In this document: piece after piece, positions 33,585 to 46,778 of the stretch
How positions within the stretch are numbered: the stretch's first letter is position 1
How the letters are laid out: every line of letters begins with the position of its first letter
Assembly (NCBI RefSeq): GCF_033100135.1
Contig: NZ_CP136920.1
Coordinates: forward strand, 806,001-870,000
DNA length: 64,000 nucleotides
DNA from: Rubellicoccus peritrichatus
GTDB taxonomy: Bacteria > Verrucomicrobiota > Verrucomicrobiia > Opitutales > Cerasicoccaceae
Reading direction: 5' to 3'
Position numbers and translations under genes: made by a program
The notes under the pieces: generated by a model
Database searches by the model: none
Told to the model about the DNA's origin: nothing
The model's input: the letters and a program-made list of their open reading frames with translations, nothing else

Positions 33585-35162
33585 ATGCTGAAATCAGTAT
33601 ATTTACCCCTTATAATTCTTACGATTACTACTTTGCAAAGCCATGCTCAACTATGGTCCGGGGTCAATGGTGAGACTGTGGGCTGGAAGCACTCTGATTG
33701 GTTTGGTTCTTTCTGGAGTCCAAGCCGAGAAAGCGGCTGGCTCTACCACGAGACGTTGGGTTGGCTTTATGCTGAAGGTGATTCTCAATCCGACATTGAA
33801 ATCTATACCACGGACCTTGCATGGCTTTATACTAATGAAAGTCTCTATCCCGTTTTCTACTCTTATAGTAAAGATGACTGGTTGAATTATGTCCCTGCAA
33901 CCAATCCGGATACTCCATACTGGTATAGTTATGGAGAAGGCGTTTTTGTTGAACGTTCCTCAGTGGCAATTACGATACAAGTGGCCGATCTGGCAGAATT
34001 GGCACAAGATGGAAACCATGATGCGCGACGTGAGTATTTCTGGACATACTGGGTTTATGTTACAGAAATTGTCGATGGAGGTATTCCACGCTTTGAGACA
34101 TGGTTTACCAGAGATGACGTATTCTCCGAAGATGGTGTCGACCTTGGGGCCAACTTGCACCAGCCGCGTCAGCATCAAAATCTGGATACAGACTCCAACG
34201 GAACACCCGGAAGCATCACCTCGCTCTTCTTTAATGAAGCACTGACCGATTACATTCGAAGCAATGAATTCTATTATGAACAAACCTTCATTGACTTGGT
34301 TGAAGAGTATAATGAAGAGGGACTTACCGGAATAGACCGCGCACTTGTTTTTCCAGAGAGTTCGATTGGCTTAAAACCTATCTGGTTCCCTATTTTAAAC
34401 AGGACGGACACCACTTACCGTATCATGCCAGTCTGGGATGGAGATCCGCAATACCCGGTAACAGACTCAACACCGGATGCAGTCAATCCACCACTTCCAA
34501 GTTCGGATAATAGCACCCTGGGTTTTAAAACGGCGGTACTGGTTGATGTCTCCGGCGATGAAATCAGTGATGGCACCACGGAAACTATTTCCTGGAATGG
34601 AGATGACGATTACGAAGCGGATGTGGTTTCCATCAATGACTTTTATTACCAAATTATCACAGAAGAAACTTTGGACGACGCATACAGTGCTCTTGAAGAT
34701 CAATACCCGGATCTTGCCGAAGAGCTTGCAGTCGGTGATTATTTAATGCTTGTCGGCATGCACCTGCTGCCGGAAGCCACACCAGTGACCTATGGCACCC
34801 TATGGTGGCACGATGATCCCGACTACGGCGAATATGCAAGTCTTCGGCCCGACTCAGTCACGGGCGTTTTTGCCAACTATGTTCTCGATGGGACTTTCCT
34901 CACCGATACCAATGACTCATATGAGTATGATGGCACTGGTAAGGTTGTATTTAATCCATATCTTGAAGCCTATAAAGCCGGTGGCGTTGCCTCGAACTGC
35001 GTTTTTTGTCATGTTCAGGCTGGCTATGGCTTTGAAGACCCCAGTCCGGCTCCAAGGACCGGTCTGGAAGATGCTTTCGACACCTTCAACGACAGTGTTG
35101 GATTCGGCGGCTGGTGGGTTTTGGTTTATGAAGTTATCTCAGCAGCCGACGATGATCAATAA
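33585..35162 (+). CDS. Exported WLY-module monohaem protein, tandem copy 1
   Basis: A 525-residue protein with a signal peptide (about residues 1-21). Residues 30-117 form a Trp/Tyr-rich module: SGWLYHETLGWLYAEG, then LAWLYTNESLYPVFY, then DDWLNYV and TPYWYSY. The larger C-terminal part has GLKPIWFPILN (about 262-272), IMPVWDGDPQYPV, GDYLMLVGMHLLPE (about 384-397), TLWWHDDPD, FNPYLEAYKAGGVASNC and one CxxCH haem site (Cys472, Cys475, His476). I recall similar WWHD / NPYLEA / SNCxxCH proteins in other bacteria without known function. It is predicted to be an exported c-type cytochrome; partner and substrate are unknown. It is the first of three tandem paralogues, 35 nt before the second. Confidence 0.85.
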   Translation: MLKSVYLPLIILTITTLQSHAQLWSGVNGETVGWKHSDWFGSFWSPSRESGWLYHETLGWLYAEGDSQSDIEIYTTDLAWLYTNESLYPVFYSYSKDDWLNYVPATNPDTPYWYSYGEGVFVERSSVAITIQVADLAELAQDGNHDARREYFWTYWVYVTEIVDGGIPRFETWFTRDDVFSEDGVDLGANLHQPRQHQNLDTDSNGTPGSITSLFFNEALTDYIRSNEFYYEQTFIDLVEEYNEEGLTGIDRALVFPESSIGLKPIWFPILNRTDTTYRIMPVWDGDPQYPVTDSTPDAVNPPLPSSDNSTLGFKTAVLVDVSGDEISDGTTETISWNGDDDYEADVVSINDFYYQIITEETLDDAYSALEDQYPDLAEELAVGDYLMLVGMHLLPEATPVTYGTLWWHDDPDYGEYASLRPDSVTGVFANYVLDGTFLTDTNDSYEYDGTGKVVFNPYLEAYKAGGVASNCVFCHVQAGYGFEDPSPAPRTGLEDAFDTFNDSVGFGGWWVLVYEVISAADDDQ

Positions 35163-35197
35163 TCATTATATTAAAATTTATTAAATAAATATAAACT

Positions 35198-36784
35198 ATG
35201 AAAAAAGCAAATTGCCTACCCCTGGCCCTACTCATATCTATTTTATCATGCTTGCAATGCCACGGTCAGCTATGGTCTGGAGTCAGTGGTGAGCCGGCAG
35301 GATGGAAACACTCTGAATGGTTTGGTTCTTTCTGGAGCCCGAGCCAGGAAAGCGGTTGGCTTTATCACGAAACATTGGGCTGGCTCTATGCCGAAGGTGA
35401 CTCTCAGTCCGACATTGAGATTTATACTACGGATCTGGTTTGGCTTTACACCAATGAAAGCCTCTACCCCGTTTTCTACTCTTATAGTAAAGATGACTGG
35501 TTGAATTATGTCCCTGCAACCAATCCGGATACTCCATACTGGTATAGTTATGGTGAAGGCGTTTTCGTTGAGCGCTCCTCAGTGGCAATTACGATACAAG
35601 TGGACGATCTGGGGGAATTGGCAGCAGAGGGAGACCATGATGCACGACGTCAGTATTTCTGGGCATACTGGGAGTATGTCACAGAAATTGTCGAAGGAGG
35701 GCTTCCGCGCTTCGAGACATGGTTTACAGGTGATGAAGTATTTTCCGAAGACGGTTTCAATCCTGGAGGCAACCTGCACCGACCACGCCAACATGAAAAT
35801 CTGGATCCAGACGTCGACGGAACCCCTGGAAGCATCACTTCGCTCTTCTTTAATGAAGCATTGACCGATTACATTCGGCGCAATGAATACTATTATGAGC
35901 AAACCTTCATTGATCTGGTTGACGAGTATAACGAAGAGGGACTGACTGGATTAGAACGTGTACTTGTCTTTCCGGTAAGTTCGATTGGCTTGAAACCTAT
36001 CTGGTTCCCCATATTAAACAGGACGGATACCACTTACCGCATCATGCCAGTCTGGGATGGAGATCCGCAATACCCGGTAACAGACGCAACCCCGGATGCA
36101 GTCAATCCACCGCTTCCAAGCTCGGATAATAGCATCCTGGGTTTTAAAACTGCTGTGCTTGTTGACGTATCCGGCGATGAAGTCAGTGATGGCACCACTG
36201 AAACAATCTCCTGGAATGGCGATGACAATTACGAAGCGGATGTAGTTTCCATCAATGATTTTTATTATCAGATCATCACTGAAGAAACATTATCCGACGC
36301 ATACAGTGCGCTTGAGGATCAATACCCCGATCTTGCTGAAGAGCTTGCAGTTGGTGATTATCTTATGCTTGTCGGCATGCACCTGCGGCCAGAAGCCGTA
36401 CCAGCGACCAATGGCACCGTATGGTGGCACAATAATCCCGACTACGGCGAGTATGCAAGTCTTCGACCCGACTCAGTCACGGGTGTCTTTGCCAACTATC
36501 TCCTCGATGCAATCTTCCTCATCGATTCCGATGACTCATATGAATATGACGGCACAGGTAAGGTTATATTTAATCCATATCTTGAAGCCTATAAAGCCGG
36601 TGGCGTCGCCTCGAACTGCTTTTTTTGTCATCTCCAGGCTGGATATGGTTTTGAAGATCCCAGCCCAGCTCCACGAACCAGCCCGGAAGATATATTTGAT
36701 ATTTTCAACGACGACAGCGTTGGATTCGCCGGCTGGTGGTCTTTTGTTTATGAGGTTATCTCAGCAGCCGACGATGATGAATGA
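35198..36784 (+). CDS. Exported WLY-module monohaem protein, tandem copy 2
   Basis: A 528-residue paralogue of the preceding gene, closely similar over the whole length. It keeps the signal peptide (ending HGQLW), the Trp/Tyr-rich module, the KPIWFPILN, TVWWHNNPD and FNPYLEAYKAGG blocks, and the haem motif CFFCH (Cys474, Cys477, His478). An 86-nt stretch (35,468-35,553) is identical to copy 1 (33,849-33,934), pointing to recent duplication or gene conversion. The 35-nt leader is nearly all A and T and has no Shine-Dalgarno sequence. The 52-nt gap to the third copy suggests a single transcript. Haem attachment is inferred from the motif. Confidence 0.85.
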   Translation: MKKANCLPLALLISILSCLQCHGQLWSGVSGEPAGWKHSEWFGSFWSPSQESGWLYHETLGWLYAEGDSQSDIEIYTTDLVWLYTNESLYPVFYSYSKDDWLNYVPATNPDTPYWYSYGEGVFVERSSVAITIQVDDLGELAAEGDHDARRQYFWAYWEYVTEIVEGGLPRFETWFTGDEVFSEDGFNPGGNLHRPRQHENLDPDVDGTPGSITSLFFNEALTDYIRRNEYYYEQTFIDLVDEYNEEGLTGLERVLVFPVSSIGLKPIWFPILNRTDTTYRIMPVWDGDPQYPVTDATPDAVNPPLPSSDNSILGFKTAVLVDVSGDEVSDGTTETISWNGDDNYEADVVSINDFYYQIITEETLSDAYSALEDQYPDLAEELAVGDYLMLVGMHLRPEAVPATNGTVWWHNNPDYGEYASLRPDSVTGVFANYLLDAIFLIDSDDSYEYDGTGKVIFNPYLEAYKAGGVASNCFFCHLQAGYGFEDPSPAPRTSPEDIFDIFNDDSVGFAGWWSFVYEVISAADDDE

Positions 36785-36836
36785 TCATTCGCGAAACCAT
36801 ATTCATATACAATAATATATTTATTTAATATATATC

Positions 36837-38432
36837 ATGAAAAAAGCAAGCTACCTAACTCTAATCCCACTCATCTCAACACTATCATGTTTACAAAGCC
36901 ATGCCCAACTCTGGTCCAACACAAGTGGTGAGCCTGCAGGATGGAAATACTCTGATTGGTTTGGTTTTTTCTGGAGCCCGAGCCAGGAAAGCGGATGGCT
37001 CTACCACGAAACATTGGGCTGGCTCTATGCTGAAGGTGATTCTCAGGCGGACATTGAGATTTATACTACGGACCTGGTGTGGCTTTATACCAACGAAAGT
37101 ATATATCCTGTTTTTTACTCCTATAGTAAAGATGACTGGCTCAATTATGTAACGGCGGACAATCCGGAAAACCCCTATTGGTATAGTTATAGTGAGGAAG
37201 TTTTTATTGCACGATCCACCCTGGCAATTGGCTTCGCAACCGCTGACTCATTGAGCTCAGGCGAAGATGGCAGTTTTGATGCGCAAAGAAGCTACTTCTG
37301 GCAACTCTGGACTTTCATAACTGAAGTGGATAATAATAATGTTCCTTTCTTTGAAACGTGGTTCACCCGAGACGAAGTATTTTCAGAAAGTGGTATTGAT
37401 TCTGGAGCAAACTTACATACGGCACGGCAAAATCAGTATGCAGACGCACGCAGCCATGGAGCCCCCGGAAGTATCACTTCATTGTTCTTTAATGAAGCGG
37501 CAGCTGATTTCATTCGGAGCAATCGCTACAACTATGAACAAACTTTTATCGACCTAAGTGAGCAGTATGAAGAGGAGAATGTGGCAATAAGTGACCGTAA
37601 TCTTAGCTTCCCGAGTAGTTCTATCGGGCTAAAACCCATCTGGTTTCCCATATTAAATCAGTCAGCGAGCACCTATCGTATTTTACCAGTATGGAACGGA
37701 GATCCACAATACCCAGTGACAGATGAAACACCCGACGCAACAAATCCTCCGCTTCCGAACTCGGACAATAGTATCCTTGGTTTCAAAACCGCTGTGCTTG
37801 TTGATGTATCTGGCGATGAAGTCAGCGATGATACCACTGAGACCATCTCGTGGAATGGCGATGATGATTACAGCGCAGACGTTGTCTCCATCAATGATTT
37901 CTATTATAAAGTAATTACAGAAGAAAGCCTGTCCGATGCCTATGATGCCCTTGAGGATCAGTATCCTGATATTGCAGAGGAGCTGGCAGTGGGCGATTAC
38001 CTCCTCCTAGTAGGGATGCATATGCTACCCCATGCAGAGTTGAAAACTTATAGTACACTCTGGTGGCATACAGATCCCGATGTCGGAAGGTATGCAAGCC
38101 TCAGACCAGACTCAGTCAAAGGTGTTTTCCGAAACTACATCATGGATGTCACATTTGATGTAGGCGATTCCAATGAGTACGATGGAACTGCTCATGTCAT
38201 ATTCAACCCATACCTTGAAGCCTATTCGGCAGGTGGTGTTGCTTCAAATTGTCTATACTGCCATTCATATGCAGCTTATGGTGCGTCAGTCCCCAGCCCT
38301 GCGCCTCGTGCAGAGGCCACGGCCAGTAGTGATGGTGATAGCGATAGTGATAGCGACAGTAGCACTGTCGGGTTAGATGGATGGTGGAGCTTAGAATTTG
38401 AAACGATCTCTGCCGACGATAGTGACGATTAA
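36837..38432 (+). CDS. Exported WLY-module monohaem protein, tandem copy 3
   Basis: The 531-residue third paralogue, more diverged than the first two in residues 120-260 but with the same order: signal peptide (ending SHAQLW), WLY module, GLKPIWFPILN, GDYLLLVGMHMLP, TLWWHTDPD, FNPYLEAYSAGGVASNC and CLYCH (Cys472, Cys475, His476). Unlike the others, it has a DSDSDSDSS low-complexity insertion before the final GWWSLEF segment, coded by a GATAGC/GATAGT hexamer run. The AT-rich leader again lacks a Shine-Dalgarno sequence. It converges on the TIGR03790 gene with 29 nt between the stops. Confidence 0.85.
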   Translation: MKKASYLTLIPLISTLSCLQSHAQLWSNTSGEPAGWKYSDWFGFFWSPSQESGWLYHETLGWLYAEGDSQADIEIYTTDLVWLYTNESIYPVFYSYSKDDWLNYVTADNPENPYWYSYSEEVFIARSTLAIGFATADSLSSGEDGSFDAQRSYFWQLWTFITEVDNNNVPFFETWFTRDEVFSESGIDSGANLHTARQNQYADARSHGAPGSITSLFFNEAAADFIRSNRYNYEQTFIDLSEQYEEENVAISDRNLSFPSSSIGLKPIWFPILNQSASTYRILPVWNGDPQYPVTDETPDATNPPLPNSDNSILGFKTAVLVDVSGDEVSDDTTETISWNGDDDYSADVVSINDFYYKVITEESLSDAYDALEDQYPDIAEELAVGDYLLLVGMHMLPHAELKTYSTLWWHTDPDVGRYASLRPDSVKGVFRNYIMDVTFDVGDSNEYDGTAHVIFNPYLEAYSAGGVASNCLYCHSYAAYGASVPSPAPRAEATASSDGDSDSDSDSSTVGLDGWWSLEFETISADDSDD

Positions 38433-38461
38433 TCCATTGGTCTACTTATCGCTCAGCAATC

Positions 38462-40093
38462 TTACTTTTTCTTCTTAGCAGCATCGCGCTCTTTGATCGC
38501 AGTAAGTTCTGCGCTCCATTCCTTGGCTTCCCTCCTTTGCCGCAAGGATTTGGCCCATTGGACACCCTTAGGATAGTAATCACGAATAGCACTCTCAGGG
38601 AGGCCGGAGATCGACAAGGCTTTCATGATTTTAAAAGCAAGTTCATGCTCGTTGATTCCCCATAGGAACTCTGCGACGTTGAAAGCCAATCCCTGCTGAT
38701 CCGGTGAGTATCTTGGAACCACTGCCGCCATGGAGAGAAATTTAACCGCTTCCGCATTATCGCCATCTTCACTGGACAGCTTCGCCAGCTCGAAGCCCAG
38801 GGCCAAACCAGGCGCAGAGTGGAACTCCTTTTTGCCATAGGCAAAGGCGAGGTTTTTTCCCTCCTGCAACCTCAGGCGGTTCATTTCACGAATGACGACA
38901 TACTGGCTAAGATCATCCGTAACATCTAATGATTCGAGCTGTGATTCCAGGCTAACCTTGAATGGCTGGTAAAGTGGGTCTCCCACGAAGATTGCCATCC
39001 AGCTCAAAACCGGTAACGCATAATAAGCGGCATCCCCTGCTGACATTCCATTGACCAGGGCCTCAACAAACCCCTGGGGCCGATGCGTCAGCTCCAGATA
39101 AGGCTCATAAACATTACCGACAGTTGCCGTCAGGCCCCGCGCAACCAATGGGCCGGTCCATCGCTTATGCATCATCCGGATCGATGTCGCGGAAAAACTA
39201 TGCAGATGCCAACCCAATGCGCCCGGAGGAAACTCAAAATTGCGCTCCTTGACGGGCCCTTGAATATCGGCCTTCCACCAACCAAAATAAAACGCCGGGG
39301 CGTCAAAACGCTCCTTATAACCAATCGCAGCCGGAGCGCGGTTCCAAGTGGATGGATAATCCAGGGCTTCCAAGCGCTTCCCGGCACTTTCGATCCATTC
39401 GTCGCCTTTCTGATGCGGACCGCCAAGGTCAATGTAAGCACGCCCTCTTAATCCCTTTTCTTCAGCCTCAATAGCTCGATCCACGAGAGCCATCGCATCT
39501 TCCATACTTGGCCCATCCAATCGTGCGACCTTGACGACTTGTTGAAGGGCAAGGGACGAGGGTTTGGCCTGTCCAAAAAGTGGATTGGGCACGAACCCAA
39601 TAGTTGGAGTCGCGGGAACGGCAAGCAATGAAAGTTCCGCATCAACCGCCCCCTGGTTGACCTTAAACTGCGCTTGAAGCTGATCGGTCTTGTCCCGGTC
39701 GAGTCTTGCCTTGTCATTGGATATCCGCAGCGGGATTCGGCAAACGACAAGAAAATCCATTCGATTGCCCAACGAGGCGACATTGAGCCGCCCGTCCGCA
39801 TCCTTTTGCTCACTGATTGAACCTTCAATCCAGTTCGCCTTGAAAAGCTCACGACGTAGTGGGTTAAAAATAGTCGAGACAAAGTCGTCCCAGGAAATGG
39901 TTTCCCCCTTTGAGCATTCAACCAGAAAGAGATTTTCTTTGGGAATACTTCGTGCCTTCAGGTAATGCTCAGCGATCTTGACCGAATCCGAATCCTTGGA
40001 GTTGGCCACGACAACAATCCTCTCCGGATCAAGCGCCAGAGCCGATGTAAAGGTTACACAGAAAAGAAATAAAAGATGAAGATGTTTCAGCAC
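38462..40093 (-). CDS. TIGR03790-family protein, exported
   Basis: A protein of about 543 residues matching the TIGR03790 family, of unknown function and known mainly from Verrucomicrobia, Planctomycetes and Acidobacteria. Typical features are the start RIVVVANSKDSDSVKIAEHYLKAR-like block (VVVANSKDSDSVKIAEHYL), RSIPKENLF, MDFLVVCRIPLRI and GLTATVGNVYEPYLELTH. The last 120 residues are helical, of TPR-like appearance. No ATG starts this frame; I prefer GTG 40,093 because it puts a signal peptide (LHLLFLFCVTFTSALA) at the N-terminus. GTG 40,144 would add 17 residues. It follows the NCS2 permease on the same strand. Confidence 0.75.
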   Translation of the reverse strand: MLKHLHLLFLFCVTFTSALALDPERIVVVANSKDSDSVKIAEHYLKARSIPKENLFLVECSKGETISWDDFVSTIFNPLRRELFKANWIEGSISEQKDADGRLNVASLGNRMDFLVVCRIPLRISNDKARLDRDKTDQLQAQFKVNQGAVDAELSLLAVPATPTIGFVPNPLFGQAKPSSLALQQVVKVARLDGPSMEDAMALVDRAIEAEEKGLRGRAYIDLGGPHQKGDEWIESAGKRLEALDYPSTWNRAPAAIGYKERFDAPAFYFGWWKADIQGPVKERNFEFPPGALGWHLHSFSATSIRMMHKRWTGPLVARGLTATVGNVYEPYLELTHRPQGFVEALVNGMSAGDAAYYALPVLSWMAIFVGDPLYQPFKVSLESQLESLDVTDDLSQYVVIREMNRLRLQEGKNLAFAYGKKEFHSAPGLALGFELAKLSSEDGDNAEAVKFLSMAAVVPRYSPDQQGLAFNVAEFLWGINEHELAFKIMKALSISGLPESAIRDYYPKGVQWAKSLRQRREAKEWSAELTAIKERDAAKKKK

Positions 40094-40175
40094 AGGATTG
40101 TTGTCATAAGCTGCTACGCGGCGGAGGCCAAGCAACAATTCCACTCACAAGCATAAGATGCCATCCGGATGCCAC

Positions 40176-41906
40176 TTAGATGCCACGGCTCTCGACGGAC
40201 ACGGCAAGAAAATCCCCATCATTGAAATGATGATGCTCAACGGATGCAGCAAGGGAGTTGAGAATGCGCAATGCAGCGTTCTGGCCAGTCCCGGCTGACT
40301 TCTCTGCCAATTCACCAATCGCGGCCTCAAGGTTCGCGGCAGTCGCTCCATAGGCGAATTCCAGTATCGCTTTGGATTCCTCAAAACGCAGGCTCAAGCT
40401 AAGCGCTTTATCCGTCTCATTGTTACCATCAAGAAGGAACATAACCGACTCTTCACCTACGAGTTGCAAGCGGCGGGTCGCATCTTCATCCCAACCCTGA
40501 GCCAATGCCCGCTCTTCTAAAAACTCATGGACTGAGCCGACAACACCGCTTCCCTTCCCAATTTTTAAAACGTTTGAGCGACCGCGACGCAGAGAGAAAA
40601 GCCAGCTAAGGACCAATGCTGTCAAACCGCCAGCAGTCATACCATTGTCCATCAGAGTATGCATCCATTCCGGCATCAGTGCCGGGAAAATTGCCTTACT
40701 TTGAAAAGCCGTCCCCATCCAGAACGAGATACCCACGATCAATCCATTTTCCGCGCTAAGGCCTCCGTTTGCGACCAAACGAATACCGCCAGCCGAAAAG
40801 AGAATCGCCAACAGGATGATAAGGTATGCACCAACAACCGGATTGGGTATAGCCTGCAGCAAGGCCGAGACCTTGGGAAAAAAGGCCAGGATCAGCAATA
40901 TCCCTCCTCCGTAAAGCGCAACGCGGCGTGCGGCAACCCCGGTAAACTCGACAAGACTGACACTGGTCGAATAAGTCGTGTTCGGAAGCGTCCCAAACAA
41001 GCCAGAAAGCAGATTTCCCACACCATCCGCGCGAAGCGCTCCCTGAACCGAACGAAAATCAATCGGTCTGCTGCCACGATGGCCACATCGTTGCATGCTG
41101 ACAGCATCCCCAAAGGTTTCAATCGCACCAACTACGGTCACGATGGCGAACGCAGGAAAAAGCGCCCAAAAACGACTATCAAAAGAGAGATCCATGCCTG
41201 GCCAACCAACCTGTGGAAAGCCAATCCAGGCAGCTGCCTTGATGCCACTGGTATCAAATAGTCCAAACGGAATCGCCGTCAACGTACCAGCAACAACACC
41301 GATTAGTGGCCCCCACAAGCGCCAGCGTTTGCTGCCAAAAATCGCAATCCCCACAATGGCGACGAAGGTAACGCCCGCTGTTAAAGCAGCAGGCATTCCC
41401 TCGGAGCCAGCAGGCACTTTAGTAAGCAAACCGGTGCAAACCGGAAAAACCGTCACGACAATCAGCATAACAATGACACCACCAACCGACGGTGTGATGA
41501 CGTTGCGGAACCATGACAAGCGCGCCGCCAGAGCCAGTTGAACCAGGGCGGAAGTCGCCGCCAACGTCGCCAACAGGGCCAACCCGCCACTCTCTACCGC
41601 TGCTGCACCAACCGCAATAAAGGCCCCGCTCGTCCCCATGAACAAGGGATAGCCTGATCCCCAACGGCCAATCGGCCTGGCCTGAAGACAGGTTGTCAGG
41701 CCACTGATGATGAAAGCGGCAAAGATAACCCAGCTGTTTTGCACTGCATCCGCGCCGGCGATGCGAAGTACAACGACAGGCGTTAGAGCGATGCCCGATA
41801 TGATCAGAGCAATAGCCTGGAATCCCAAAAAGAGTGACAATCCATGCGGCGGCGTTTCATCCGCAGCGTAAAGTAACTGATGATTCGTATTATCCTCTTC
41901 CTTCAT
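40176..41906 (-). CDS. NCS2 purine/pyrimidine permease with RsbW-like C-terminal domain
   Basis: A 576-residue protein. Residues 1-435 are a polytopic NCS2-type nucleobase/ascorbate transporter with about 12-14 membrane segments, including FGDAVSMQRCGHRG (about 265-278) and LFGTLPNTTYSTSVSLVEFTG (in part LPNTTYSTSVSL), the family's substrate region. Residues about 445-576 are a cytoplasmic domain resembling the anti-sigma factor/histidine-kinase-like ATPase fold: VHEFLEERALAQGWDED, LQLVGEESVMFLL and a final strand GDFLAVSVES. The Asn expected in the N-box is Phe, so ATP binding or catalysis is doubtful. The substrate is probably uracil or a purine; the tail may regulate transport. Confidence 0.82.
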   Translation of the reverse strand: MKEEDNTNHQLLYAADETPPHGLSLFLGFQAIALIISGIALTPVVVLRIAGADAVQNSWVIFAAFIISGLTTCLQARPIGRWGSGYPLFMGTSGAFIAVGAAAVESGGLALLATLAATSALVQLALAARLSWFRNVITPSVGGVIVMLIVVTVFPVCTGLLTKVPAGSEGMPAALTAGVTFVAIVGIAIFGSKRWRLWGPLIGVVAGTLTAIPFGLFDTSGIKAAAWIGFPQVGWPGMDLSFDSRFWALFPAFAIVTVVGAIETFGDAVSMQRCGHRGSRPIDFRSVQGALRADGVGNLLSGLFGTLPNTTYSTSVSLVEFTGVAARRVALYGGGILLILAFFPKVSALLQAIPNPVVGAYLIILLAILFSAGGIRLVANGGLSAENGLIVGISFWMGTAFQSKAIFPALMPEWMHTLMDNGMTAGGLTALVLSWLFSLRRGRSNVLKIGKGSGVVGSVHEFLEERALAQGWDEDATRRLQLVGEESVMFLLDGNNETDKALSLSLRFEESKAILEFAYGATAANLEAAIGELAEKSAGTGQNAALRILNSLAASVEHHHFNDGDFLAVSVESRGI

Positions 41907-42092
41907 GATACCTAGTGTTCATTAACGAATCCGCTATTGCCTCACAAGTCGCGTAATTCGTCCACTAATAATCCACTTGGTAATCAAAATAATTTCATGC
42001 AACGGAAAGAGACACAAAAAGTCGGTGCATCGGCCTTCTTAGCGTCTTAGCAAGAGAGTATGAATGTAAAAAGCCTGAGGAGCGGCAATAAC

Positions 42093-44801
42093 TTACACAA
42101 ACCGCTTTGCCTTAACAGCGAAAGCTCCCTGACGTTGCTTGTGCTCGACTGGAAATAGCGGTGTTTCCTGCGGACATGGAATACTCGGTGTTTTGAGCTG
42201 CGGGCCCGGCAAGCGCTTCGCATAGAGCTCATCTGTTTCAGTCAGGTAATAACTGTAAGCAACCGTGATTGGCTCCTGTGTTATTGCATCGAAGAAAGTC
42301 CGCGGATTATTTGTACCCTCAACATAATACAGCCAGCGTTCTTCATCCTGCCGCCATATAAAAGGGTAAGCTGAGGCTATCGTGTAGATCCATCCCAATT
42401 GCTGGTCGTAGAGCCAGTAGTTGCCATCAAAATCGCCACCACCTGCCGCATAGAGCCAACCGTGATTCACACTGTAAAGCCAACGAAACTCGCCAATGTA
42501 GAGTGGACCAAGAAATGTATTTACCCAATCAACACCGAGCGTTTCCGCGTTCCCCAAATAAGCTTGAGCCGGTGAAAGCTCGAAACGGGAGGCGTAGGCA
42601 GGCGCGTTCAGAGCGCCCCAGATAACATCCAGAAAACCAACTACCGGAATGTCGGCATCAATGACTTTCTTTTCAAAGGTTTTTAAGTCCAACTGCTGGC
42701 GCCAGAGTCCGGCATAGAGCATGCCAATGTTAATCTTCGTGGCATTGTCACCGTAGATGTTGAATGAAGTCATCCCACTGACAGGCGGAGGATCAAAAGA
42801 CTCCGTCACCATCCGTCCTATCATGGTGTAAGCACCTTGATCCGTCACCGGATTACCCAAAATGGGAGCCCAATAATCAAGATCGTCCTGATTGGGAACT
42901 TTCAAAAGCAGGAGACTATATATCGTCGTGGTAAAGATAGCTGGTAAGCGCTCAACAGTTCCAGCCTCTTCAAAGATGATCTCAAGTACGTTTTGCGCAA
43001 AAAGTTGGGTCACACGCCATACGCGATCATTCTCATTTTCGCTTCTCCATAAATCCGTAGCGTTGCTCAAGTCAGCATATGTCGGGGGAACTGCCTGCTG
43101 AGCTAAAACAGAGAACAGATTAAGAACGATGCCTGTATAAATGCCAGCTGTCGGAAAAATAGCCTCTTGATTCAGATAAGTCTGGTTACCATATATCTGA
43201 TCCTTGATGTACTCAGCACGGCGCAATGTTGTGTCTCCAAAAATACCTGCATTGATGTAACTGGCGCCCGCACTCAATTCAGCCGACGTCGGTGCACGGT
43301 AAAGCAGGTCCTGAAAAGTTTGCGCAACGAAATCATCGACGTTATTCAGCGGAGTCGCATTGGTATTGTAGAGCACAACATCGGCCGATGCAAAAAAGCC
43401 CAACGCTGTCGGAGCAGTAGGCATACTCAGAACAACGGCAAAATGAAGGTTTGTCGGAGCATCAAGCGAATCGATCAGTGTGATCGTGATTGTCTGCTCA
43501 AATTCATTTGCTCCGAAATCCAATGTGCCGGACTTCGCCACAAAATTCTCTCCCGCTACCGCAGTCCCGGAAACCGTTGCGTAGTCGACTGATGTACTAC
43601 TGCCAAGAGGCCCGAGTCGACGCACGGTTAAGGTAACTTCATTCGCATCATCCGCCACAGTCACTTGAGGTTCGGTAAACTCAATCTCAGGTGCACCGGT
43701 TCCGCTATCCTTAAAAAGCGTATATGAATCACGAAGGTTATTATCGATGTCGTAGTACAGCAGTGATAGCGTGTTCTCGTTGGCTTCGAGTAGTTGTGCT
43801 CCATAATCCTGCACACGCACCTTGCTACCTGGAACAATGTTTGAAGTTTCAAAACCAGACTCTGGCACAAAACCACCTGCGCCATTCACAATGTAAGTGA
43901 TCGTCGGGCTCGTCTTACCTGGATCGGCCTTGGCCATACGTTCGTAGTTATGCACATGACCAACCATAACAAGGTCTGCACCCCAGGCTTGAAAAGGCCA
44001 GCGCGCTACAGACTGCTCACCACCACCTGTGGCAGAAGTGTAAGGCGGTTCGTGAAAACAAACGATCTTCCACGCCGCTGTCGATGCAGCCAACTGAGCT
44101 TGAAGCCACTTGCCCTGAACACCATCTGCATCACGCCCATAGGGAGTTGCCGGGCAGTTATCGATCATGAAAAAATGAACGGCACCACGAACGAAATCAA
44201 AATAGCGAATAGTTGGTGTTTCGCTAAAATTCGAACCATCCGGGAGGGTCACATTGGTATTATAAAGATTGATTGGAGCCGATCCCTGAGTCAGGGCAGG
44301 CGTCAAGTAATCCAGGTAAGGTTGTGAGTTTGCGATGTTTGCAGTCGTCGGTTCTAAATCATTCGCAACATCAGCGTAGTCGTGATTCCCCAACACCGGA
44401 AAGAAGCGGTTGAACTTTGGTCCATCCGATGGATATGGATAGTCACCGCTATTGGGACTTGTGCCCTTTGGATAAATATAATCGCCAAAGTTTTTACCGA
44501 TATTGGCATCAATGGTTGAGGCCTGGCCTAACACGTAATTATTATCACCGAGAGATATAATAAAATCAGGATCCCAACTGACCATCATCGGTCCAACCCG
44601 GTCAACCGGGAAAAGACCATTTGCCGATGTTTCCCCAAAATCACCAATGATCGCAACACGAATGCTACCATTTGACACCGTTTGACCTCTGGCATTTTGA
44701 GCAAAGAAAACAGATAACGATCCCGAGGCAATACTCGCACCAGTTAACGAACCAACTTTGAGAAAATCACGGCGATTGAGAGCAGAAGTTTCATTTTTCA
44801 T
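42093..44801 (-). CDS. Tat-exported purple acid phosphatase-like protein with Calx-beta and WLY modules
   Basis: A 902-residue multi-domain secreted protein. A twin-arginine signal (NRRDFLKVGS) leads into a metallophosphoesterase of purple-acid-phosphatase type (about residues 45-310). Metal motifs are GDFG (53-56), GDNNY (85-89), GNHD (138-141), HEPPY (250-254) and GHVHNYER (281-288). A Calx-beta domain follows (about 370-475; SVDYATVSGTAVAGENF). A helical region resembling DUF4214 comes next (about 485-760; FVAQTFQDLLYRAP). The Trp/Tyr-rich WLY module is at about 765-840 (FRWLYSVNHGWLYAAG, WIYTIASAYPF, ERWLYYVEG). It is last in a minus-strand run beginning with the esterase gene. The substrate is some extracellular phosphate ester. 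Confidence 0.88.
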   Translation of the reverse strand: MKNETSALNRRDFLKVGSLTGASIASGSLSVFFAQNARGQTVSNGSIRVAIIGDFGETSANGLFPVDRVGPMMVSWDPDFIISLGDNNYVLGQASTIDANIGKNFGDYIYPKGTSPNSGDYPYPSDGPKFNRFFPVLGNHDYADVANDLEPTTANIANSQPYLDYLTPALTQGSAPINLYNTNVTLPDGSNFSETPTIRYFDFVRGAVHFFMIDNCPATPYGRDADGVQGKWLQAQLAASTAAWKIVCFHEPPYTSATGGGEQSVARWPFQAWGADLVMVGHVHNYERMAKADPGKTSPTITYIVNGAGGFVPESGFETSNIVPGSKVRVQDYGAQLLEANENTLSLLYYDIDNNLRDSYTLFKDSGTGAPEIEFTEPQVTVADDANEVTLTVRRLGPLGSSTSVDYATVSGTAVAGENFVAKSGTLDFGANEFEQTITITLIDSLDAPTNLHFAVVLSMPTAPTALGFFASADVVLYNTNATPLNNVDDFVAQTFQDLLYRAPTSAELSAGASYINAGIFGDTTLRRAEYIKDQIYGNQTYLNQEAIFPTAGIYTGIVLNLFSVLAQQAVPPTYADLSNATDLWRSENENDRVWRVTQLFAQNVLEIIFEEAGTVERLPAIFTTTIYSLLLLKVPNQDDLDYWAPILGNPVTDQGAYTMIGRMVTESFDPPPVSGMTSFNIYGDNATKINIGMLYAGLWRQQLDLKTFEKKVIDADIPVVGFLDVIWGALNAPAYASRFELSPAQAYLGNAETLGVDWVNTFLGPLYIGEFRWLYSVNHGWLYAAGGGDFDGNYWLYDQQLGWIYTIASAYPFIWRQDEERWLYYVEGTNNPRTFFDAITQEPITVAYSYYLTETDELYAKRLPGPQLKTPSIPCPQETPLFPVEHKQRQGAFAVKAKRFV

Positions 44802-44927
44802 ATAAAGAGGAGCAAATAATAAGAGGGTGTGGACTTAAGAGCCTAAGCTTTTCCTAATATTCCACGCAAGCTTCTCTTATCACAGAAAATAGGGCCATAC
44901 AGCCAATATCAGTCCAAGGGAAAGACT

Positions 44928-45761
44928 TCAGGACAGACCCAGAAAGCGCTGAACATTATCGGCCACCTGCTTCCTAAGCTCTTCTTCATTGTACTCCAGA
45001 CAATGCGCTGCAAGTCGATAGACAGAACCGATATTACCTGGATGATTAATGATTCTCTTTTCGTTTTCATCAAAGAGAGGATAGACAATCGACTCAATCG
45101 GAGGCGACATATCGGGGGCATCGGTCTCGATCAAAAGACGTTCAAGCGGGACTTTCCGAAAAGCCTCCAATTTCGCGCTTTTATCCTCTCTTGCAAAATA
45201 GCCACTGAAAGAAAAGTAGGCGCCCTGATCAACGAATGCGTCAACCATGTCAGCTGGTCCTCCGTAGGAGTGAAGTAAAAAGCCACACTTTGGTTTATGC
45301 ACGTCTCTAAGTACATCGTAAAGCGTGCCCCATGCTTTTAAGCAATGAATCGATAAGGGAAGATCTCTCTCGGCTGCAAGTTCCAGTTGCCAGAGAAATG
45401 CTCGCTTCTGAGCATCAAGATCATAGTCACGAATCCACTTGTCCAAACCACACTCACCAATGCCAGCCGGTTTGTTCAATTTATCTGCTTCATTCAAGTG
45501 ATGAATCAATGCGTTTTGCCAATCAGCTGGTGCTTCATTGACATACCAGGGATGGAGCCCGAAGGACGGAATCACAAATGAATAATCAACTGCCAACTGC
45601 AAAACGGCAGGCCAGTCTTCAGGGCGTGTCCCGTTGACTACGACACCCGCGACATGCTCCTCTTCGTAAACTTTAGATAACCCGGTGATGACTTCCTTTA
45701 GGCGCTCATCCTGCAAATGCAAATGCGCGTCATAGTAAGATAAATCATCACTAGACAACAT
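44928..45761 (-). CDS. TatD family metal-dependent hydrolase
   Basis: A 277-residue TIM-barrel hydrolase of the TatD family (DNase/3'-5' exonuclease-like). Metal ligands are visible in DAHLHLQDE (about residues 10-18), GIGECGLDKW (about 95-104), LSIHCLKAWG (about 135-144), GFLLHSYGG and IETDAPDMSPP (about 211-221). It starts 6 nt after the stop of the exported WLY protein, indicating co-transcription. Characterised relatives act on DNA ends and on D-tyrosyl-type substrates; which applies here is not visible. Confidence 0.9.
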   Translation of the reverse strand: MLSSDDLSYYDAHLHLQDERLKEVITGLSKVYEEEHVAGVVVNGTRPEDWPAVLQLAVDYSFVIPSFGLHPWYVNEAPADWQNALIHHLNEADKLNKPAGIGECGLDKWIRDYDLDAQKRAFLWQLELAAERDLPLSIHCLKAWGTLYDVLRDVHKPKCGFLLHSYGGPADMVDAFVDQGAYFSFSGYFAREDKSAKLEAFRKVPLERLLIETDAPDMSPPIESIVYPLFDENEKRIINHPGNIGSVYRLAAHCLEYNEEELRKQVADNVQRFLGLS

Positions 45762-45767
45762 ATTATA

Positions 45768-46778
45768 CTACCCCTCTTCTCCAATCGCACTCCACTGAAA
45801 AGTCACCGAATTGTAAACCCAGGGATACAGCTCCTGGTTGGTCCAGATCCAGGTGGCAGTACGATCGACCCACGCCCAAGCAGATTTTCGATCACCTTGA
45901 AAATACAACCAGCTCTGCATATCATCGCTCCAAACCCATGGAAAGGAATCCGTCCAAAGCGAACCAAACTCAAAACTCTCCTGCCAGCCACCACCCATAT
46001 CCCAAGTGTAGCCAAACATATTCCAGACCGGATTGTTGCCATCAAGAATCGGTAGAGGCTTGGGCTCAAAGTTTAAATCGGTTTCGGTGAGTTCGGAATA
46101 AACATACTCTTCAGTCTCAGGGTCAAATCCAGAGCCCTTTACTTCATATATCCCGGGAATAACCCAATAGGTATATTCCCAGCTAAATGTGCCAGGAGTA
46201 TAATAATCACCTTCTAGAATCCGTACGGTCTCTCCATTAAACCTTAACGCTGGTAAGCGACCAAATATCGTATCAATGACTTCAATCGATTCCAACACAC
46301 GTGTATGATCATATCGTGCAGTCCCATAAGGTTCAGAATCACCAACCAATTGATGCTTCACGACCCGATAGAAAGAATAAGGGACTCCCAGTTCAATCAC
46401 GGTTGGCGCAGACGTGTTGTCCAATAAGTTTTCATTATAATCAGGATCAGAATAATAGCGAGTGGCATAGGAACCGTCTTCCTTATTATGTGTCACCCAG
46501 CTATCCCGAAAGCCACGCCCCTCATCAATTGAAACGGTTAAGACAGACTCAGAGTCTCCTTTGGCCCGCCAATGCTCCTTGAACAAATATTTTTCTGAAT
46601 AGCCCGGATACCCATATGACTCCGCAAAGATCAAAGTGTTTCCCTTCGGAGACAGCTCAAAGCCAAAGTCATTTTCAAAACTCTGCGCAGACACAGGGCA
46701 GGTAAAGCCGAAAACCAACGTGACTAGCAGCCATGCTTTTATTAAACTCTTGAAGGAATGATTTGGCGGTGTATCCAT
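45768..46778 (-). CDS. Exported protein with C-terminal WLY module
   Basis: A 336-residue protein with an N-terminal signal (about residues 12-31, ending VSAQ). Residues 35-235 are beta-rich without a recognised family, containing SYGYPGYSEKYLFKEHWRA and LESIEVIDTIFGRLPALRF. Residues about 250-336 carry the Trp/Tyr-rich module in its W-W form: GSLWTDSFPWVWSDDMQSWLY, WAWVDRTATWIWTNQELYPWVY. The module ends the protein, as in many exported Verrucomicrobia proteins I recall. It lies 6 nt upstream of tatD-like and 46 nt after the aldo/keto reductase gene. Function unknown. Confidence 0.75.
   Translation of the reverse strand: MDTPPNHSFKSLIKAWLLVTLVFGFTCPVSAQSFENDFGFELSPKGNTLIFAESYGYPGYSEKYLFKEHWRAKGDSESVLTVSIDEGRGFRDSWVTHNKEDGSYATRYYSDPDYNENLLDNTSAPTVIELGVPYSFYRVVKHQLVGDSEPYGTARYDHTRVLESIEVIDTIFGRLPALRFNGETVRILEGDYYTPGTFSWEYTYWVIPGIYEVKGSGFDPETEEYVYSELTETDLNFEPKPLPILDGNNPVWNMFGYTWDMGGGWQESFEFGSLWTDSFPWVWSDDMQSWLYFQGDRKSAWAWVDRTATWIWTNQELYPWVYNSVTFQWSAIGEEG

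Follow-up and report, generated by a model that had tools for sequence, protein, structure and literature searches.

Five exported proteins encoded between positions 33,585 and 46,778 of a 64,000-nt stretch of the Rubellicoccus peritrichatus genome (the window; NZ_CP136920.1, positions 806,001 to 870,000, numbered here from its first letter) share an aromatic module of about 95 residues, which stands at the N-terminal end of three CxxCH proteins, towards the C-end of a phosphatase and at the extreme C-terminus of a protein without known domain (Table 1). A first-pass annotation of the letters alone had noticed this Trp/Tyr-rich module, could not assign it to a named domain, and suggested a cell-surface, matrix or secretion-targeting function on the grounds that the attached domains are unrelated yet all exported. 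We therefore sought to determine whether the shared module is real, how far it extends beyond this region, and whether that suggestion could be supported.

Table 1 Features of the module-bearing region in window coordinates. E values of module copies are from a profile search of the genome.
Positions	Strand	Feature	Evidence
33585..35162	+	Carrier 1, exported protein with one CxxCH	ORF; no Pfam or NCBIfam family at E<=10
33669..33959	+	Module copy 1, N-terminal, just after the signal peptide of carrier 1	E 2.0e-28; copy is a row of the profile
33681..33719	+	Predicted hairpin 1 of copy 1	Model strands 8-12 and 16-20
33738..33776	+	Predicted hairpin 2 of copy 1 (around GWLYHETLGWLYA)	Model strands 27-30 and 34-39
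33792..33836	+	Predicted hairpin 3 of copy 1	Model strands 45-50 and 54-59
33852..33893	+	Predicted hairpin 4 of copy 1 (YP, then W-L-x-Y)	Model strands 65-68 and 73-78
33918..33953	+	Predicted hairpin 5 of copy 1	Model strands 87-90 and 95-98
35198..36784	+	Carrier 2, tandem paralogue of carrier 1	ORF; Cytochrome_CBB3 below cut-off, E 0.022
35291..35578	+	Module copy 2, N-terminal	E 5.2e-28
36837..38432	+	Carrier 3, tandem paralogue of carrier 1	ORF
36927..37217	+	Module copy 3, N-terminal	E 1.9e-27
42093..44801	-	Carrier 4, Metallophos + Calx-beta protein with a Tat-type N-terminus (NRRDFLK)	Metallophos E 7.2e-12; Calx-beta E 7.6e-14; TIGR01409 16.0 bits, just under its cut-off of 16.7; Tat-like pattern
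42258..42542	-	Module copy 4, towards the C-end of the phosphatase, with a 54-aa tail behind it	E 5.8e-27; copy is a row of the profile
45768..46778	-	Carrier 5, exported protein without known domain	ORF; no Pfam or NCBIfam family at E<=10
45774..45998	-	Module copy 5, extreme C-terminus; by alignment it stops before hairpin 5	E 1.3e-10; copy is not part of the profile

A multi-copy module family in one genome

All five copies were confirmed, and their residue positions agree with those of the first-pass annotation within about 12 residues. Copies 2 and 3 are near-copies of copy 1 (94% and 80-81% identical), whereas the E value of copy 5 is unbiased because that copy did not enter the profile. 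A 54-aa query taken from copy 1 alone found copy 4 at E 4.4e-6 and copy 5 at E 0.054, and it found 49 places in its own genome at E<=10, 33 of them below 0.01. A profile built from 23 own-genome copies found 70 matches at E<=1, of which the 64 with E<=1e-3 were retained as copies. The module is thus not a feature of one 13-kb region, since these copies lie round a 5.8-Mb genome, and the region itself holds three independent carriers rather than five because carriers 1 to 3 are one tandem-duplicated gene. The haem label given to these three proteins rests on one CxxCH per protein, seen by eye, and the only Pfam support is the sub-threshold match in carrier 2.

To evaluate whether such matches could arise by chance, we scored 1500 composition-keeping shuffles of module segments with a sister profile. 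The shuffles reached at most 8.6 bits, compared with 19.7-103 bits for 30 carriers, 24 of which had trained that profile, and with 19.7-89 bits for the six untrained ones. Together with the absence of a match in 281 of 288 genomes of the phylum, these results rejected chance or low complexity as an explanation.

Predicted fold and sequence pattern

The commonest residues of the module read G-W-x-x-S-x-W-[FL]-G-x-F, P-W-[IVL]-Y-H-E-x-L-G-W-[LMF]-Y, W-[LF]-Y-x-x-x-x-L-G-W-[LVI]-[WFY]-T, Y-P-x-[LFI]-Y-S-x(5)-W-[LI]-[YF]-[YF] and R-x-F-[YF]-N-x-x-T-x-x-W-[FI]. The profile repeats within itself: the stretch WIYHETLGWLYA in hairpin 2 returns 20 columns later as WLYSLDLGWLWT in hairpin 3, with a score of 12.75 against at most 8.27 in 500 column permutations, and hairpins 2 and 4 also match (10.33). 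AlphaFold2 modelling of window positions 33660-33962 with 11 sequences predicted ten strands in five beta-hairpins (pLDDT 80.2, pTM 0.71), while a model of the copy from an Opitutia MAG (L091), made with the same sequences and another first row, was weaker (pLDDT 64, pTM 0.53, nine strands) and also all beta. Foldseek (best E 0.44 and 1.1) and VIA-align (best Z 3.1, rmsd 7.7, 91 aligned, and best Z 3.6, rmsd 3.1, 62 aligned) found no convincing relative for the two models, which shows neither a new nor a known fold. Some copies are short: the viral copies described below, copy 5 of the window and those of one other genome stop before hairpin 5 by alignment.

No Pfam, NCBIfam or PDB sequence family covered the module above threshold. 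Among 23 copies scanned against Pfam no family came near its cut-off (best E 0.01), the NCBIfam scan of the five window carriers named no type IX tail family, and the best PDB sequence hit (E 0.61) was taken as chance. No paper about this domain was found among the titles and abstract openings screened, in a literature search that left out preprints and most subscription journals. The 64 copies average 26% Trp/Tyr/Phe and are all net acidic (-1 to -19, mean -9), and none of the 64 has a 19-aa stretch of mean hydropathy >=1.6.

The module sits at the ends of unrelated exported proteins

Each of the 64 own-genome carriers has a single copy. Of these copies, 46 end within 15 aa of the ORF end, 13 begin within 60 aa of the ORF start, behind the signal peptide, and 5 are elsewhere, among them that of the window phosphatase. 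In 60 best-match loci of 16 other genomes, examined with wider limits of 30 and 80 aa, 47 copies are C-terminal, 6 N-terminal and 7 other, one of these starting at residue 81. We also asked whether the N-terminal copies have a single origin, and a tree of 62 of the 64 copies (those under 70 aa were left out) required 8 changes, although only 12 of its 59 inner branches are well supported and these force just 1. The copies are old, with a median end branch of 1.11 changes per column, yet the aromatic positions stay.

A loose signal-peptide rule, which is only a heuristic, was met by 57-58 of 64 carriers against 15 of 40 other window ORFs under the same limits, and a stricter hydropathy limit gave 44-45 of 64 against 10 of 40. 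Of the six carriers that miss the loose rule, five have a hydrophobic N-terminus by eye and one is cut off by the locus end. The window phosphatase has a Tat-type N-terminus and most other carriers a Sec-type one (by eye), so the module is not tied to one inner-membrane route. These observations, together with the lack of a Pfam match, supported the suggestion of the first-pass annotation.

The carriers are otherwise unrelated. The 63 carriers scanned (one, cut off by its locus at 3359 aa, exceeded our length limit of 2600 aa) matched 58 Pfam families, at most 3 carriers each, although several of the 58 are overlapping models of one domain (Ig, LRR, Cu-oxidase) and not every carrier has a match. 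A carbohydrate-binding module that brings enzymes to food polysaccharides outside the cell would agree with the aromatic, predicted beta-only module and with its presence on some hydrolases (Cellulase GH5 in 1 of 63 carriers). This reading is improbable, as the carriers also include multicopper oxidases, a MauG-type peroxidase, a cyclophilin, LRR and Ig proteins, phosphatases and CxxCH proteins, and as the module stands where PEP-CTERM stands on DUF4465 (see below). Equally improbable is a docking domain for a protein scaffold (dockerin-like) or a self-associating matrix-building domain: one compact copy per protein and hairpins with regular aromatic rows would fit, and one carrier of an Opitutia MAG (L091) also has a cohesin-like and a PKD-like part by eye, but no dockerin or cohesin is among the 25 of 58 carrier families listed and no partner domain was identified.

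The position of the module also bears on a third alternative, an export signal, in which a dedicated outer-membrane machine recognises the folded domain in the periplasm and carries the protein out, as the type IX machine does with its C-terminal domains. The predominance of C-terminal copies, the carriers with Sec-type and, in one case, Tat-type N-termini, which would place its action after the inner membrane, and the multi-copy, patchy distribution agree with this reading, and an abundant C-terminal domain on exported proteins could equally be a secretion signal. However, 13 of 64 own copies are N-terminal, no T9SS tail family matched the 23 copies in Pfam, and SprA_N had no match in 12 genomes, although it had none in the control genomes either, so that its absence is not shown. 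We consider an export signal less likely than retention, but more likely than the two preceding alternatives.

Patchy distribution across the order

In an even draw of 288 genomes of the phylum 7 carry the module, whereas in 372 genomes of the order 87 do, 72 of them with 4 or more copies, these copy numbers being lower bounds because about 13 candidates were scored per genome. Fully scored genomes hold 18 to 56 copies (10 genomes chosen as rich) or 1 to 55 copies (6 genomes). Within the window's own family, one genome besides this one has many copies (G378, 52), two have 1 and six have none. Matches are mostly but not only in one order, as they also occur in two other families of the phylum, in a Syntrophobacteraceae MAG that is outside the phylum by its title and possibly a binning error, and in three viral contigs.

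The three IMG/VR contigs (184, 122 and 47 kb) encode a protein with a signal-peptide-like N-terminus and a metalloprotease-like HExxH part (Peptidase_M64 below its cut-off, E 0.004-0.025) that ends in the module. On one contig a neighbour matches phage tail-fibre families and on another a phage protease family. Two further viral-contig scans found nothing and one found the same three contigs again, while a search of annotated phages gave no match for the viral metalloprotease and a search of plasmids gave no match for one copy.

The module and PEP-CTERM-type tails on homologous proteins

Considering that PEP-CTERM is the known tail with this kind of distribution (PMC1569441), we asked whether the module stands where PEP-CTERM stands on a homologous protein. 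DUF4465 occurs once in each of 17 of 64 genomes. Twelve of these proteins end in what by eye is a PEP-CTERM-type helix and basic tail (one with PEA for PEP), 4 end in the module (the own genome, G378 and two further genomes, G413 and G367; E 3.4e-29 to 1.5e-10 among 17 sequences, with only the own copy having trained the profile), and 1 (genome G350) ends in a degenerate W-rich stretch that the profile does not recognise. On the tree of the shared domain, the module label (G350 included) needs 4 changes (bootstrap 3-4), but well-supported branches force only 1, the label shows no clustering (194 of 500 shuffles as low), and one row is very long. The tails of genome G404 (PEP) and G350 (W-rich) differ within one genus. 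These results indicated that the two tails appear to do interchangeable work on at least one protein family, which is direct support for a sorting or anchoring role.

A second family, choice_anch_I (PF22494), found in 11 of 64 genomes, was less clear: PEP-CTERM is at 3 of the ends seen, 5 carry no recognised tail, the own genome's 1935-aa protein carries the module, and 3 loci are cut off before the end. At genome level the two tails neither require nor exclude each other. Ten module-bearing genomes of one family (f62) have 0-1 PF07589 matches each, the four single matches having E 0.011-0.072, although this is not proof of absence because PF07589 finds only part of all PEP-CTERM (22% of the TIGR02595 set in PMC1569441). 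In contrast, the own genome has at least 82 matches, a lower bound as 110 of 161 candidates were scored, module-bearing genomes of another family (f5) have 0-78, and some module-free genomes have 0-3. Exosortase homologues (PF09721) were found in 60 of 64 genomes whatever their module status, and of the four without, one (G367) has the module and three do not, so their presence gives no information on dependence.

Proposed role in surface retention

These cumulative results suggested that the module is a small domain, predicted to fold as five beta-hairpins, attached to one end of proteins exported by Sec or Tat, and that after export it probably keeps the protein at the cell surface or in the extracellular matrix as an alternative to PEP-CTERM tails in Opitutia-type bacteria. 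We hold this reading with moderate confidence. Surface retention and action after inner-membrane export are inferred, as is the most likely mode of action, non-covalent binding of a surface polysaccharide or matrix component through the rows of Trp and Tyr, and the predicted fold has no relative that points to glycan binding. We prefer this reading to recognition by a dedicated transporter because a fifth of the copies are N-terminal, because the module looks like a compact domain rather than a peptide tail, and because phages use it; use of both ends fits a binding domain better than a directional signal. A phage would gain from a host's surface-retention domain if the domain works by itself, which is speculation. 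It remains possible, though tentative, that the module represents an undescribed surface-display system that does not use the PEP-CTERM helix, is swapped for PEP-CTERM tails on homologous proteins, works from either end of the protein, and was taken up by large aquatic phages to display a secreted metalloprotease. If the proposed role is right, one domain model would mark a good part of the surface proteome of many bacteria of one order, with tens of proteins per genome, some without any known domain, and would show that a folded domain can stand in for the exosortase tag.

Comparison with known systems

The module appears to work like a surface-sorting tag, but by the tests made it is not PEP-CTERM, not a known type IX tail and not a choline-binding repeat. 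It shares with PEP-CTERM/exosortase sorting (TIGR02595, PF07589, PF09721) the presence of many copies in some genomes and none in most, on diverse proteins with signal peptides and near the C-end (PMC1569441), as well as its place on DUF4465. It differs in being a predicted folded beta domain of about 95 aa without a hydrophobic helix or basic tail, in standing also at the N-terminus, and in occurring in genomes with 0-1 PF07589 matches. Only 2 of 46 C-terminal copies have a basic pair in the last 12 aa, and the ends of the 18 carriers whose module is not within 15 aa of the C-end show no PEP-CTERM by eye.

Type IX secretion C-terminal domains (TIGR04183, PF18962) appear to resemble it as folded beta domains of similar size at the C-end of many exported proteins of one genome, but the 23 copies scanned gave no match to such a family at E<=10 in Pfam, and the position of the module is not strictly C-terminal. 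Choline- and cell-wall-binding repeats (PF01473) probably use aromatic beta-hairpin repeats of about 20 aa for non-covalent anchoring, yet the repeat models likewise gave no match at E<=10 among the 23 copies, and the module is present as one unit of about five predicted hairpins per protein, in bacteria that by kinship should have an outer membrane. The OCRE domain (PF17780), which seems to have a similar aromatic beta-hairpin pattern, gave a weak match to 4 of 23 copies (best E 0.01), but the one member shown scored 11.5 bits against a cut-off of 24.7, and OCRE probably belongs to eukaryotic splicing factors.

Module copies in other genomes and on viral contigs

Three large viral contigs were found to encode a secreted metalloprotease-like protein ending in the module, and on two of them a neighbour matches phage tail-fibre families (locus L094) or phage protease families (locus L093). 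We also found a protein with a C-terminal module in a Syntrophobacteraceae MAG (locus L092), which lies outside the phylum by its title (transfer or a binning error). In an Opitutia MAG (locus L091), inspection by eye suggested that one protein combines a cohesin-like part, a PKD-like part and a C-terminal module. In addition, a distant family of the phylum, represented by genome G023, has a shorter, very Trp-rich variant in which about 60 aa were matched, with five of its seven copies on one contig, contig 45 (loci L070, L074, L078, L082 and L090).

Locations of module-bearing proteins and related features
Feature	Sequence	Position
Secreted metalloprotease-like protein ending in the module	viral contig, L093	2798-4207
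Secreted metalloprotease-like protein ending in the module	viral contig, L094	2849-4207
Secreted metalloprotease-like protein ending in the module	viral contig, L095	1939-3357
Protein with a C-terminal module	Syntrophobacteraceae MAG, L092	2567-4282
Protein with cohesin-like and PKD-like parts (by eye) and a C-terminal module	Opitutia MAG, L091	265-1266
Three tandem CxxCH proteins with N-terminal modules	window	33585-38432
Fourth protein with a similar N-terminal module and a similar C-end	genome	5605138
Tail behind the module of the phosphatase	window	42093-42257
Region with eight module copies	genome	765544-851998

Module copies in and around the window

A profile search of the genome showed that eight module copies lie within 87 kb, three of which (765544, 778243 and 783441) are upstream of the window (genome 806001-870000). 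The N-terminal module of the fourth protein, which resembles those of the three tandem CxxCH proteins, is 69% identical over the query. The phosphatase carries a 54-aa tail behind its module, rich in Pro and Lys/Arg at its end, unlike most C-terminal copies.
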